Of a stretch of DNA of 64,000 nt, positions 15,937 to 20,099 are shown piece after piece; position 1 is the first letter of the stretch, and every line of letters begins with the position of its first letter. A program made the translations under genes and the position numbers. Below the pieces are notes generated by a model that saw only the letters and a program-made list of their open reading frames with translations, was not told the DNA's origin and did not search any database. The stretch comes from Pseudonocardiaceae bacterium (lineage in GTDB: Bacteria; Actinomycetota; Actinomycetes; Mycobacteriales; Pseudonocardiaceae): contig WHTH01000014.1 in assembly GCA_009377865.1 (NCBI GenBank), forward strand, positions 1 through 64,000, read 5' to 3'.

Positions 15937-16031
15937 ATAGCTACCAGGTGTCAAATGAGGCAGTTGATGAAGGCTGCTGGCAGTAACACTTGATCTCGGT
16001 CGACCCGGGAGGGAACGGGAGGTGGGGCGCG

Positions 16032-16901
16032 GTGGCGGTGTCATCGGGTTCACCGACGGCGCTGAAGAGGTGGATCGCCTTCGAGTTGCGCGCGATGCGC
16101 GAGGAAGCAGGGCGCAGCCGGCCACAGGCCGCTGAACGGCTCGGTCGAGCCGTGACCCAGATCGGCCACCTTGAGACAGGGCGGAATCTGCCGTCCCTGC
16201 CCGACGTGGAGGTACTACTGGCCTGGTACGGCCGCCCAGAACGGGTGGAAGTCTTCCGCGACCTCATCCGCCGGGCCAGGAAGGGCCGCGACTGGTGGAT
16301 CGGGTTTACCGACGCTATGCCCGAGTGGTTCGGCCTCTACCTCGGACTGGAAGCGAGCGCCGTCGAGGCCGCAAGCTACGACGCCGTGCACGTCCCCGGA
16401 CTGTTACAGACCGCTCCGTACGCCGAGGCGATCATCCGGGCCGGCGAGCGCGCGCTATCCGAGGCCGAGATCGCCCGCCGCACCGAGCTGCGCATGGCCC
16501 GCCACGCGCTCTACGAACGCCAGCAGGACCCGCTGCGGGTATGGGCTGTACTCGACGAAGCCGCGCTACGGCGCCAGGTCGGCGGCCCCGCCGTACTCCG
16601 GGATCAGCTCCACCTTCTCGCAGAGCTGGCCAACCGACCTAACATCGACCTGCAGCTGCTTCCGGCCTCCAGTGGCGCTCACGCTGGCGTCGAGGGCACC
16701 TTCACGCTCCTGACGTTCCCACCGGAACTGGAGGGCGACCACGGGGTCGCCTACGTCGAAACCCGAGTGCGGGGTATCTACTACGAGGATCCAGCCGAGA
16801 TCCTCTTGTACCGCCAGGCGCTGACCCGGCTGCAGGTACAGGCCCTGGACCCGGAAGAATCCCGCGACGCCATCAACCGTATCGCCCAGGAGATGACATG
16901 A
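16032..16901 (+). CDS. XRE-family regulator with DUF5753 domain
   Basis: A 290-residue protein. The N-terminal helix-turn-helix spans about residues 20-70 (LRAMREEAGRSRPQAAERLG, then VTQIGHLETGRNLPS). The DUF5753 ligand/partner domain fills the rest (VPGLLQTAPYAEAII, RVWAVLDEAALRRQVGG). Such proteins pair with DUF397 proteins and often control development or specialised metabolism in actinobacteria. GTG 16032 is chosen for GGGAGG 9 bases upstream. The stop overlaps the DUF397 start by 4 bp. Confidence 0.92.
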   Translation: MAVSSGSPTALKRWIAFELRAMREEAGRSRPQAAERLGRAVTQIGHLETGRNLPSLPDVEVLLAWYGRPERVEVFRDLIRRARKGRDWWIGFTDAMPEWFGLYLGLEASAVEAASYDAVHVPGLLQTAPYAEAIIRAGERALSEAEIARRTELRMARHALYERQQDPLRVWAVLDEAALRRQVGGPAVLRDQLHLLAELANRPNIDLQLLPASSGAHAGVEGTFTLLTFPPELEGDHGVAYVETRVRGIYYEDPAEILLYRQALTRLQVQALDPEESRDAINRIAQEMT

Positions 16902-17140
16902 CTCACCACGACACACTCACAGCTCTGGCCTGCGCGGGCGGATGGCATAAGTCCTCGCGCTCCCAAGGCCAGGGGGGCTGCGTCGAAGTCACCACCGCAC
17001 TACCCGGGTGGGTCGGCGTCCGCGACACGAAACTCGGAGCCGACAGCCCAATCCTGGCGTTCACCACCTCCGAGTGGACAGCGATGCTTGCCGGCGCAAG
17101 AACCGGTGAATTCGATGTACCACCAGTAGTGATGTCGTGA
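16898..17140 (+). CDS. DUF397 protein, partner of the XRE/DUF5753 regulator
   Basis: An 80-residue protein with the DUF397 signature WHKSSRSQGQGGCVEV, VGVRDTKLG and AFTTSEWTAMLAGARTGEF. DUF397 proteins modulate their cognate XRE-DUF5753 regulators in Streptomyces (BldB and WhiJ-associated types). ATG 16898 overlaps the regulator stop, so expression is coupled. It is followed directly by a second, broken copy. Confidence 0.93.
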   Translation: MTHHDTLTALACAGGWHKSSRSQGQGGCVEVTTALPGWVGVRDTKLGADSPILAFTTSEWTAMLAGARTGEFDVPPVVMS

Positions 17141-17371
17141 CTTCCGTACCCGGCTGGAAGGTCAAGGGCTCGCGCGGGTGTCAAGTCGTCATACTCGCAG
17201 GGCGCGAACAACTGCGTGGAGGTCACCACCACCGTGCCCGGCTGGATCGGGCTGCGCGACAGCAAGCTCGGCGACGCCTCGCCGCTGCTTGCCTTCACCC
17301 TCTCGGAGTGGCGTGCCATGCTCGCCGTGGCCCCGTGCCGGGCAGCTCGACGCCTGATACGACAGCTGTAG
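17137..17371 (+). pseudogene. second DUF397 gene, frameshifted
   Basis: GTG 17137 overlaps the previous stop and reads SVPGWKVKGSRG. The conserved body then continues in another frame as SSYSQGANNCVEVTTTVPGW, IGLRDSKLGDASPLLAFTLSEWRAML, up to a TAG at 17369-17371. One small indel near 17180 explains it. The C-terminus is also poorly conserved after MLAVAP. The tandem arrangement suggests a duplication of the DUF397 gene followed by inactivation. Confidence 0.7.
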
Positions 17372-17558: not shown

Positions 17559-18731
17559 TTACCCGGTGGGTGCCAGCGGCCAGCTGTGCGCGCCGTCCGG
17601 GTCGTCGAGCCAGGCGAACTGTCCGTCGACTGAGTTCAGGGCGGTGATGCCGAGCCGGCCGGGACCGGGACGGTCGAGGGCGGTCCAGGTGGCGTAGCCG
17701 TGTTCGACGATGTCCCACAGCCGGAAGGCGCCGCGTTGCTTGACCAGCCAGGTGCCGTCCTCGCCCGCGGCGAGTTCGACCTCGGCGAGCGCGGCGGCGG
17801 TGTTGACGTAGAGGCGGCCGAGTTCGTCGGCGCGGGCGATGCGCAGGCCGGGGGCGTGCAGCCACAGGAACAGTGCGAGGTCGGTGCCGCCCTCGGTGAG
17901 CAGCGCGGGGTCGAGGCCGGTGGTGCCGTAGTGCGGAACTCCCGTCCCGGTGAAGCCGGTGGTCTGGCCCTGCCCGAGCGGATCGTCGGCTCGGTCACGT
18001 AGCGGCATGAAGTGCGCTGGGTAGGGGTCGATGCGGCCGGTGACCTCGTCGGGCGCGGTCTTGTCCATTACGAGCAGCGGCCCGGCTTCGCCGGCGTCGA
18101 GCGGTGCGACGATCCGTCCGGCCCCGGTGAGCTGGTCGATCCACGCGGGCGGGATGCAGGTCACCGCGCAGGTGGCGAGGATGCGGTTGAACGGGGCGTG
18201 CTTGGCCCAGCCGTCCGCGCCGTCGGCCGCGGCCAGCTGTGGGTGCTGGCCGAGCCTGGCCAGGTGATCGCGGGCGCCGTCGACCAACGAGGGATCGATA
18301 TCCACGGAGTACACGTTCTCGGCGCCGAGGTGGTGGCTGAGCAGTGCGGTGTTGTAGCCGGTGCCGGTGCCGATCTCCAGCACCTTCTGTCCATGTTGGA
18401 CGTTGAGCCGGTCGAGCATGGTGGCCATGACCCGTGGCCGGCTCGACGACGAGCTGGGCATTTCGTGGCGACCGAGACCGTCTCCGGCCGCGATGGTCTG
18501 GGTGAGCAGCGTTTCGTCGGCGTAGACCAGATCGAGCCAGCCGGCCTCGTCGACCTGCACCGGCGTCCGGTCGTCGCCGAGGATTCGCGGGACGAACACA
18601 TGTCGCGGCACCTCGCGGAACGCGCGCGACCACTCGGGATCGGGCAGCACGCCCGCCGCGACCAGCTCGGCCGTCAGCGCCGCGGCGCGGGTCTCCCATC
18701 CGGCGATAGCAACCGTGTCCAAGGCGGTCAC
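17559..18731 (-). CDS. PIMT-like peptide-aspartate O-methyltransferase of a graspetide locus
   Basis: A 390-residue protein: PIMT domain with FREVPRHVFVPR, the substrate-loop motif EMPSSSSSRPRVM and SAM-binding VLEIGTGTGYNTALLS (about residues 113-128), then a C-terminal extension of about 170 residues as in graspetide-associated enzymes. Relatives (for example ThfM of the fuscimiditide pathway) methylate an Asp of the crosslinked peptide, which then forms an aspartimide. GTG 18731 overlaps the ATP-grasp stop (GTGA); the frame upstream of it is noncoding. It is the last gene of the three-gene operon. Confidence 0.85.
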   Translation of the reverse strand: MTALDTVAIAGWETRAAALTAELVAAGVLPDPEWSRAFREVPRHVFVPRILGDDRTPVQVDEAGWLDLVYADETLLTQTIAAGDGLGRHEMPSSSSSRPRVMATMLDRLNVQHGQKVLEIGTGTGYNTALLSHHLGAENVYSVDIDPSLVDGARDHLARLGQHPQLAAADGADGWAKHAPFNRILATCAVTCIPPAWIDQLTGAGRIVAPLDAGEAGPLLVMDKTAPDEVTGRIDPYPAHFMPLRDRADDPLGQGQTTGFTGTGVPHYGTTGLDPALLTEGGTDLALFLWLHAPGLRIARADELGRLYVNTAAALAEVELAAGEDGTWLVKQRGAFRLWDIVEHGYATWTALDRPGPGRLGITALNSVDGQFAWLDDPDGAHSWPLAPTG

Positions 18732-19696
18732 TCCTTGGTCAGCGTGTCGGCGAACGCGGCCGCGATCGGTAGCTGGCATTCCTCGGCCAGCCAGCCCCAC
18801 GTCCCAGCGCCGTTGGCTTCATAAGCGGTCCAGCCGTCGGGGCGGATGACGAAGTCGAACACGCTGGACGCCAGCCCGGCCAGCTGTAGGTAACGTAAGA
18901 TCCCCGCCCGCACCCGGTCGGGAACCTCGATCACCTCGTAGGTCAGGGCGTCATAGTCGCAGCGCCAATCGATGTAGGCGGCGTCGCTGCCGGCGTGAAT
19001 GGCGACGGCGAACAGCTGGTCGCCGACCGCGACCACGCGGGCTTCGCCACGCGGTTTTTCTTGCCATTGCTGGAAAAGGTGCGCTGTGGCGTCCACTCCG
19101 GACAGATCAGCGAAGTCAGCGGCCGTGAGGCGGCGGGTGTAGACGACGGACTCGCCGCCGCCTTCCCACACGATCGGCTCGGCCAGCGGCTTCACCACGA
19201 GATCCCCGTGGTCAGCGGCGAATTCGCGGACCGCAGCCGCGCTGTTCGTGATCAACGTCGGTGGCACCGCGAGCCCTGCCCGCCGCAGGAGCGTGATCTG
19301 CCTGGGCTTATAGGCCGCGTCTGCCAGAGCGGAGGGATGCGACACCCACCGGGTTGGTAGGCTGGCCAGTACCCCGCCGACTCCGACGCGGGCCTGCGCG
19401 CGGGCGAACCGCAGCTCCGGCCCGGACATCTCGGTCGGGAACTCGAAGTCGGTCGGCTTGCCGTAGTAGACCGCATTCACCTCGGCCAACCGTACCCGCG
19501 TCGGGCCGACGACCAGCTCGCCGAGCCAGTCCGCACCGTTCGGCTCGAGCTGCACGTCCATCGTCATGCGTTGCGGGAAGTCCGCGGTGTTCAGCAGCGC
19601 CCACCGGACCCCGCGCGCGTCGAGTTCCTTGCCGACCTCGGCCAGCGCCCAATCGGCGGCGCCGCCGAGCACCAGCACCACCGGATGTACAGGCAC
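18728..19696 (-). CDS. ATP-grasp peptide ligase (graspetide maturase, TgmB/MvdD-like)
   Basis: A 322-residue ATP-grasp enzyme that should activate Asp/Glu side chains of the precursor as acyl phosphates and join them to Ser/Thr or Lys side chains. Visible landmarks are YYGKPTDFEFP near the N-terminus, VSHPSALADAAYKPRQITLL, the nucleotide-binding strand DLVVKPLAE, and C-terminal FDFVIRPDGWTAYEANGAG with the Mg2+-binding acid/Asn pair. GTG 19696 follows the precursor stop by only 3 bp, so translation is coupled. Confidence 0.88.
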   Translation of the reverse strand: MPVHPVVLVLGGAADWALAEVGKELDARGVRWALLNTADFPQRMTMDVQLEPNGADWLGELVVGPTRVRLAEVNAVYYGKPTDFEFPTEMSGPELRFARAQARVGVGGVLASLPTRWVSHPSALADAAYKPRQITLLRRAGLAVPPTLITNSAAAVREFAADHGDLVVKPLAEPIVWEGGGESVVYTRRLTAADFADLSGVDATAHLFQQWQEKPRGEARVVAVGDQLFAVAIHAGSDAAYIDWRCDYDALTYEVIEVPDRVRAGILRYLQLAGLASSVFDFVIRPDGWTAYEANGAGTWGWLAEECQLPIAAAFADTLTKE

Positions 19697-19699
19697 GAC

Positions 19700-19960
19700 T
19701 CAGTCGTCCGGAACCGTGTAGGAATCGTCGATCAGCTTGCCGTCCTCGTTGCACGTGCGCGGAACGAGCGTCTGCCCCGGCGAGGTGCGGTGCTTCGCCG
19801 ACACGAGCTCGGCGGTCGCCCGCACCGGGCGGGGTGTCACCCCGCGCAGGATGAACGGGCGCGCCGCACTCGGCAGTTCGTCGCTGTCCGGCGGTGCCGA
19901 CACGTTCACCGGGAAGCGGTGCGTCCCCGGTATCAGCGGCTGACCATCCACGATCCTCAC
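19700..19960 (-). CDS. graspetide/imiditide precursor peptide (TgmA-like)
   Basis: An 86-residue peptide encoded directly upstream of the ATP-grasp gene. The leader part has RPFILRGVTPRP, resembling the PFxLR element recognised by ATP-grasp maturases. The C-terminal part (about residues 55-86) is rich in Ser/Thr and Asp/Glu, for example SPGQTLVPRTC, NEDGKLIDDSYTVPDD. The Asp-Gly step at 73-74 is the kind of site prone to aspartimide formation. GTG 19960 has GAGGGG 8 bases upstream. The frame extends further 5' but there overlaps the opposite-strand riboswitch region. Confidence 0.75.
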   Translation of the reverse strand: MRIVDGQPLIPGTHRFPVNVSAPPDSDELPSAARPFILRGVTPRPVRATAELVSAKHRTSPGQTLVPRTCNEDGKLIDDSYTVPDD

Positions 19961-20099
19961 CGTCCCTTCCCCTCGACCCTGCCGCAAACCGGGAGCCCGG
20001 TCAACGCGGTCAGCCCGGCGGGTTGCTCCGGTGCCGGTCGTAGCGGCTGCGTCGTTAGGGTAGTGGGCGGCGGGTGGGACTGGCCAGATGCGACGATAC

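Follow-up and report, generated by a model that had tools for sequence, protein, structure and literature searches.

A probable graspimiditide operon in a Pseudonocardiaceae genome, with cysteine in an otherwise threonine column of its precursor family

Which modified peptide is specified by three tightly coupled genes in the genome of a Pseudonocardiaceae bacterium, and does a cysteine of the precursor take part in its crosslinks? We analysed a stretch of 64,000 nucleotides (the window; GenBank assembly GCA_009377865.1, contig WHTH01000014.1, positions 1 to 64,000), for which an earlier note had proposed an operon of a precursor, an ATP-grasp ligase and a PIMT-like methyltransferase, of the graspetide or imiditide type. 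All three genes were found at the positions proposed, on the minus strand, as were all features of the operon given below, and the operon is real and intact. The precursor gene (19700..19960), delimited by its reading frame and orthologues, has a GTG start and encodes 86 amino acids (aa), with Cys70, Asp73 and Gly74 numbered correctly in the earlier note; it is preceded by the purine-rich stretch GAGGGGAAGGGACG (19961..19974), a likely ribosome-binding site. Three bases separate the precursor stop from the GTG (at 19696) of a 322-aa ATP-grasp graspetide synthetase (18728..19696; stop at 18728-18730), assigned from profile, PDB and fold matches. This stop in turn overlaps, in the sequence GTGA (18728-18731), the GTG (at 18731) of a 390-aa O-methyltransferase of the PIMT/PAMT type with an extra C-terminal domain (17559..18731), assigned from profiles and a structure model.

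The enzymes, their order, a related leader and an Asp73 present in all ten precursors compared indicate that the locus is very probably a minimal group 13 graspetide (graspimiditide) operon, in agreement with the fuscimiditide-type architecture suggested earlier. The accompanying label of imiditide does not fit, because imiditides are pathways without an ATP-grasp enzyme that act on linear precursors (PMC13001092; papers are cited by PMC number, each for the part of its text that was available). Likewise, a plain imiditide or pamtide cluster, with neither ATP-grasp nor other primary modifying enzyme, is ruled out by the ATP-grasp gene lying between precursor and methyltransferase.

The new part of the system is the precursor family, which appears unrecognised by NCBIfam. 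In other genomes, tblastn located a precursor open reading frame (ORF) ahead of the same two enzyme genes, and ten intact precursor genes were compared gaplessly from the C-terminus (from Amycolatopsis, Fodinicola, a Pseudonocardiales metagenome-assembled genome (MAG) and relatives; G, C and L numbers are our handles for genomes, contigs and loci). For the last 32 codons, nonsynonymous was lower than synonymous divergence (dN < dS) in 8/8 pairs, with ratios of 0.06-0.62 on these short sequences and without a significance test; this and the conserved synteny rule out a chance ORF. Within the presumed core (residues 59-86; 19703..19786), whose extent we place from conservation, Thr59, Asp73, Asp79, Pro84 and Asp85 are invariant (10/10), and Thr64 occurs in eight precursors, the remaining two carrying Thr65. 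Position 70 (19751..19753 in the window) is Cys in six precursors (those of the window, G872, A. iheyensis, G826, G338 and G882, the cores of G826 and G338 being identical) and Thr in the other four (MAG, Fodinicola, G081 and G963). Position 69, Thr in the window precursor, is Asn in that of A. iheyensis. Being conserved in this way, Cys70 is therefore a candidate crosslink residue, and Cys in a conserved, otherwise-Thr column of this kind is a distinguishing feature at the level of the alignment. The idea that Cys70 marks out this precursor needs correction: its presence in six of ten precursors rules out that it is unique to the window.

The ligase matched TIGR04187 (GRASP_SAV_5884) with 312.8 bits (E 2e-93) in a profile search, with weak further matches to GSH-S_ATP and the MvdD pre-ATP-grasp domain. 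Its six sequence matches in the PDB (9bou, 5ig9, 7m4s, 5ig8, 7mgv and 7drm) bear the names PruB, which we take to be a graspetide maker, MdnC, AMdnB, MdnB, RiPP-associated ATP-grasp ligase and PsnB; 'DWR' is conserved in 4/5 of the alignments and 'E.N..G' in 5/5. With a structure model of the ligase, made from an input of five sequences (pLDDT 65), the first 32 Foldseek rows were all chains of these same proteins, headed by MdnC (E 2.9e-22), and ArgX followed in row 33. In sequence and predicted fold the enzyme thus resembles solved graspetide macrocyclases, as is characteristic of group 13.

The methyltransferase, encoded in the same operon as the ligase and paired with it at the orthologous loci, matched TIGR04188 (methyltr_grsp) with 289.9 bits (E 3e-86) and also Pfam PCMT. 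The TIGR04188 match extends over positions 1-356 of the 363 in the profile and residues 19-364 of the 390 (42-387 in the 413-residue frame used for the scan); this span and a predicted beta-alpha-beta4-alpha part point to the extra C-terminal domain typical of group 13 enzymes. The S-adenosylmethionine motif GTGTG is invariant in 6/6 aligned sequences. The top VIA-align row for the model, the solved enzyme 1DL5, was weak (Z 5.2, root-mean-square deviation 7.1, 210 residues aligned), and this likeness may reflect just a common arrangement. We also observed that the methyltransferase (17562-18731, minus strand) matches phrog_13505, annotated as methyltransferase, over residues 14-383 (E 2.6e-80); a viral family of the long PIMT form is therefore already catalogued.

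To relate the leaders, we compared the leader profile of the new family with that of 19 other precursors adjoining TIGR04187 genes, obtaining an hhalign score of 41.6 (Prob 93.7), whereas 50 column-shuffled controls reached no more than 15.8. Because these 19 had been chosen by an RPFxLR-like motif, the comparison was repeated with the motif masked, and the score of 23.1 still exceeded the 100 controls (at most 15.3). The relation to other ATP-grasp/PIMT precursors holds, although largely through this motif, which reads RPFILR in the window (residues 34-39; 19844..19861) and, as RPFxLR or RPWxLR, is common to related precursors.

Several observations speak against the assignment to group 13. 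With the motif masked, the hhalign Prob was just 24%, and TIGR04186 (GRASP_targ) was blind to the family, matching neither the window precursor in a scan of its own genome at E 0.1 nor any of nine clade precursors at E 1 (the tenth, from G963, was found after that scan). Both enzymes, despite strong matches, score below the curated cut-offs of TIGR04187 (350) and TIGR04188 (380); for the ligase this is tempered by the fact that just 3/20 ligase pieces in the same genome reach the cut-off. The model of the whole methyltransferase is poor (pLDDT 51), and the strict WXXXGXP motif of PIMT enzymes that modify peptides is replaced by WTALDRP. It was present in only one of 12 clade methyltransferases for which the C-terminal part was available (own included; the one is from G872; L074 ended before the motif, and WDHLAEP of L044 was read by eye), yet in 4/4 sister cassettes shown from the genome of the window. 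We did not treat the altered motif as excluding group 13, because most, but not all, PIMT homologues of this kind carry it (PMC13001092). In the core, Asp78 is replaced by Pro in one of the ten precursors, and position 74 is Gly in seven, Asn in two and Ser in one.

The organization of the locus is that of fuscimiditide (ThfA/ThfB/ThfM, Thermobifida fusca), with a precursor, one ATP-grasp enzyme and one PIMT homologue, and with the Asp to be modified placed in a loop flanked by nucleophiles on its N-side and Asp residues on its C-side. The ATP-grasp enzyme would recognise the leader, phosphorylate Asp79 (19724..19726) and Asp85 (19706..19708), both invariant candidate acid donors, and possibly Asp78 or Asp86, and join them to Thr59, Thr64 and either Cys70 or Thr69. 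The product is predicted to be a stem-loop held by two or three side-chain crosslinks around Asp73, which the methyltransferase would then methylate in the cyclised peptide at Asp73-Gly74 (19739..19744); loss of methanol would leave an aspartimide, possibly hydrolysing mainly to isoaspartate, and an unlinked protease would remove the leader. The spacings differ between the two systems: in fuscimiditide, Thr3/Thr7 and Asp18/Asp22 are each 4 apart (PMC12291112), whereas Thr64/Cys70 and Asp79/Asp85 are each 6 apart here. Its Thr-Asp esters enclose a 10-residue loop, whereas here the inner nucleophile column is Cys or Thr with 8 residues to Asp79 (a comparison by description, not alignment), and ThfB achieves full modification with loop lengths of 4 to 12 residues (PMC12291112). 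Since both pairs are six apart and Cys70-Asp79 encloses eight residues, Cys70-Asp79 plus Thr64-Asp85 would make a plausible ladder, with a possible third link between Thr59 and Asp86, Asp78 or the C-terminus. Among the other characterised group 13 graspetides, amycolimiditide, albusimiditide and SsfA(BM), four crosslinks are reported in amycolimiditide and five in SsfA, and the available parts of these accounts describe no linkage through Cys (PMC13001092, PMC10787088). Imiditides and type I pamtides likewise use a PIMT homologue that carries the extra C-terminal domain and acts on Asp but, unlike this locus, have no ATP-grasp enzyme.

We tentatively propose that, to close the Asp73 loop, the ligase forms a natural side-chain thioester, a Cys-Asp macrothiolactone, probably between Cys70 and Asp79; on present evidence this is possible rather than probable. 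Cys70 would stand in for a conserved candidate crosslink Thr, because column 70 holds only Cys or Thr (10/10) and because, within residues 65-72, Cys70 is the sole Ser, Thr, Cys or Lys in 5/6 Cys-type precursors. The alternative, to which we give close to an even chance, is that the ligase leaves Cys70 alone and forms the rings through Thr59 and Thr64, joined in the window peptide by Thr69, and that the free thiol serves in a disulfide, in metal binding, in attack on the neighbouring aspartimide or in a thioether made by another enzyme. It gains from the immediate proximity of Thr69 to Cys70 in the window precursor, from the report that ThfB left Cys uncrosslinked in pandonodin chimeras (PMC13003496), and from the conserved Cys already known in many graspetide precursors, read as possible radical-SAM thioether donors (PMC8939145), so that a conserved Cys is not new in itself. 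A loop from Thr64 to Asp78 or Asp79 would span 13-14 residues, compared with 10-12 in natural graspimiditides, and ThfB partly cyclises longer loops (PMC12291112). These points count against the thioester, as do the Thr spacing of five, not six, in the MAG and Fodinicola and the possibility, from the trees below, that one Thr/Cys exchange could account for all Cys types. The alternative is weakened by the restriction of position 70 to two residues, by the lack of Ser, Thr and Lys from residues 65-72 of 5/6 Cys-type precursors, by a spacing from Thr64 to residue 70 identical to that of the Thr types G081 and G963, and by the absence of any gene beyond the trio shared around the orthologues. We found no support for a thioether made by a linked radical-SAM enzyme, since none of the 17 radical-SAM matches of the genome lies on the contig of the window.

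Other cores bear on the same choice. We tallied 31 cores, all chosen by the leader motif, of which two (G112 and G101) were dropped for lack of a usable Asp-Gly; the tally excludes the clade itself, spurious frames and the precursors of the own cassettes C47, C102, C14, C88 (second site) and C91, and for at least four cores (G114, G053, G075 and own C39) the Asp-Gly taken as anchor may be other than the modified one. Thr or Ser lies three residues before Asp-Gly in 13/29 and five before in 23/29. Cys occurs within the 16 residues before Asp-Gly in a single core (1/29; own C62, 15 residues before and linker-like) and after it in 4/29, and these C-terminal Cys favour the reading of an uncrosslinked thiol. 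As to precedent, nucleophile substitutions have given thioesters and a thioester-linked ThfA has been made (PMC12291112), such linkages in graspetides are termed non-native (PMC13097080), and we found no natural graspetide thioester among the matches listed in the open literature searched, as far as its text was available; in PMC10885120, which deals with graspetides and a thiolactone, the thiolactone concerns staphylococcal autoinducing peptides. One related core, searched against the PDB, yielded no matches. If the thioester is real, one small peptide would combine an aspartimide electrophile with an exchangeable thioester, at least six members of a single gene family would encode peptides of this kind, and the ligase would be a native enzyme suited to thioester macrocycles. 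The family, with a Thr/Cys exchange made by evolution at a conserved position, would also be, to our knowledge, the first natural case, graspetide thioesters being laboratory products in the literature available, and matched Cys- and Thr-type orthologues would allow the effect of the linkage on stability and on methyltransferase recognition to be asked.

Whichever residues are joined, the aspartimide may be a mere intermediate, with isoaspartate at residue 73 as the physiological end product; we consider this quite possible, if short of even. SsfA was obtained as an isoAsp/Asp mixture (PMC10787088), and hydrolysis of the fuscimiditide and amycolimiditide aspartimides favours isoAsp (PMC13001092), whereas 3/4 characterised graspimiditides were purified as aspartimides (PMC13001092). 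That the locus is instead a decaying remnant without a product is very improbable. Several sister cassettes in the same genome are split, and at three Amycolatopsis-type loci (L091, L092 and L077) we found no precursor and a ligase match that starts only at residue 29, 106 and 293, respectively; the three window genes, however, are intact with coupled junctions, and the core shows dN < dS.

Close ligases (E ≤ 1e-84) occur in at least 11 of the 390 family genomes scanned, among them that of the window (best five candidates per genome scored), in 7/80 genomes of the genus of G338, and in G120, which is Fodinicola feengrottensis by its sequences. Named orthologue records are from Amycolatopsis iheyensis, F. 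feengrottensis (two copies), the Pseudonocardiales MAG and A. coloradensis (a fragment); the G841 precursor is the same as that of A. iheyensis and the G962 contig the same as the MAG, each being counted once. In the second Fodinicola copy (L075 3741-5029), excluded from the counts, the precursor frame is shifted and the ligase interrupted by a stop, while the methyltransferase frame stays open to the contig end. Searches with the precursor profile among 397 genomes of the order and 396 of the phylum (best 13 candidates per genome scored) gave matches in at least three genomes each, including in the phylum G519 (E 1.8e-4) and G571 (E 9.6e-4); G081 was not among the matches listed, and a match in G067 (L040) was not accepted as a precursor, as it sits within a 548-residue frame. 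The ligase tree grouped the Cys types (support 95/91 with 18 rows and 83/84 with 15). The methyltransferase tree did not, although the enforced grouping was not rejected (approximately unbiased test, p 0.26), and concatenated trees left it undecided or at 76/70.

Around the operon, the trio were the sole genes common to at least three of 12 loci (ORFs ≥60 aa, E 1e-8; flanks of about 9 kb in nine loci and shorter in three); the genes shared by these flanks consequently include no protease, transporter or immunity gene. Convergent to the operon, profile matches identified an HTH-DUF5753 regulator (15990..16901, plus strand) adjoined by a DUF397 protein (16898..17140, plus strand), directly followed by a second, shorter DUF397-like frame (17141-17371, plus strand). 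The closest relative, G872, has a DUF5753/DUF397-type pair about 460 bases upstream of its precursor, and no such pair was found at the other orthologous loci examined. For groups 11 and 13, co-occurrence with DUF397-DUF5753 genes has been noted as a possibility (PMC13097080). The regulator here is possibly linked to the operon.

The genome of the window (G000, 4.0 Mb; window at C45) contains at least 14 TIGR04187 matches at E ≤ 1e-20, distributed over 12 sites, at two of which the match is in two pieces, compared with a maximum of five in each of 149 other relatives (best 13 candidates per genome scored). A threshold of E 0.001 gives 20 pieces spread over 14 sites, although C102 and C104, which are close to contig ends, might together be a single gene; the genome also yields 25 TIGR04188 and 31 PCMT matches. 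Several of the sister ligase genes on C14, C39, C88 (two sites), C91 and C114 are split in two frames or lack an inner stretch, through either decay or draft-assembly errors. Three sister cassettes have nearby DUF397-like stretches (L024 10-926, L020 115-177 and L030 987-1088), and one an HTH-DUF5753-like gene. Finally, three sister cassettes (L018 867-1106, L021 946-1160 and L023 887-1105) share, upstream of the ligase, a conserved small ORF of about 80 aa with the pattern GWVxLDxGYTxRWRRxDP.

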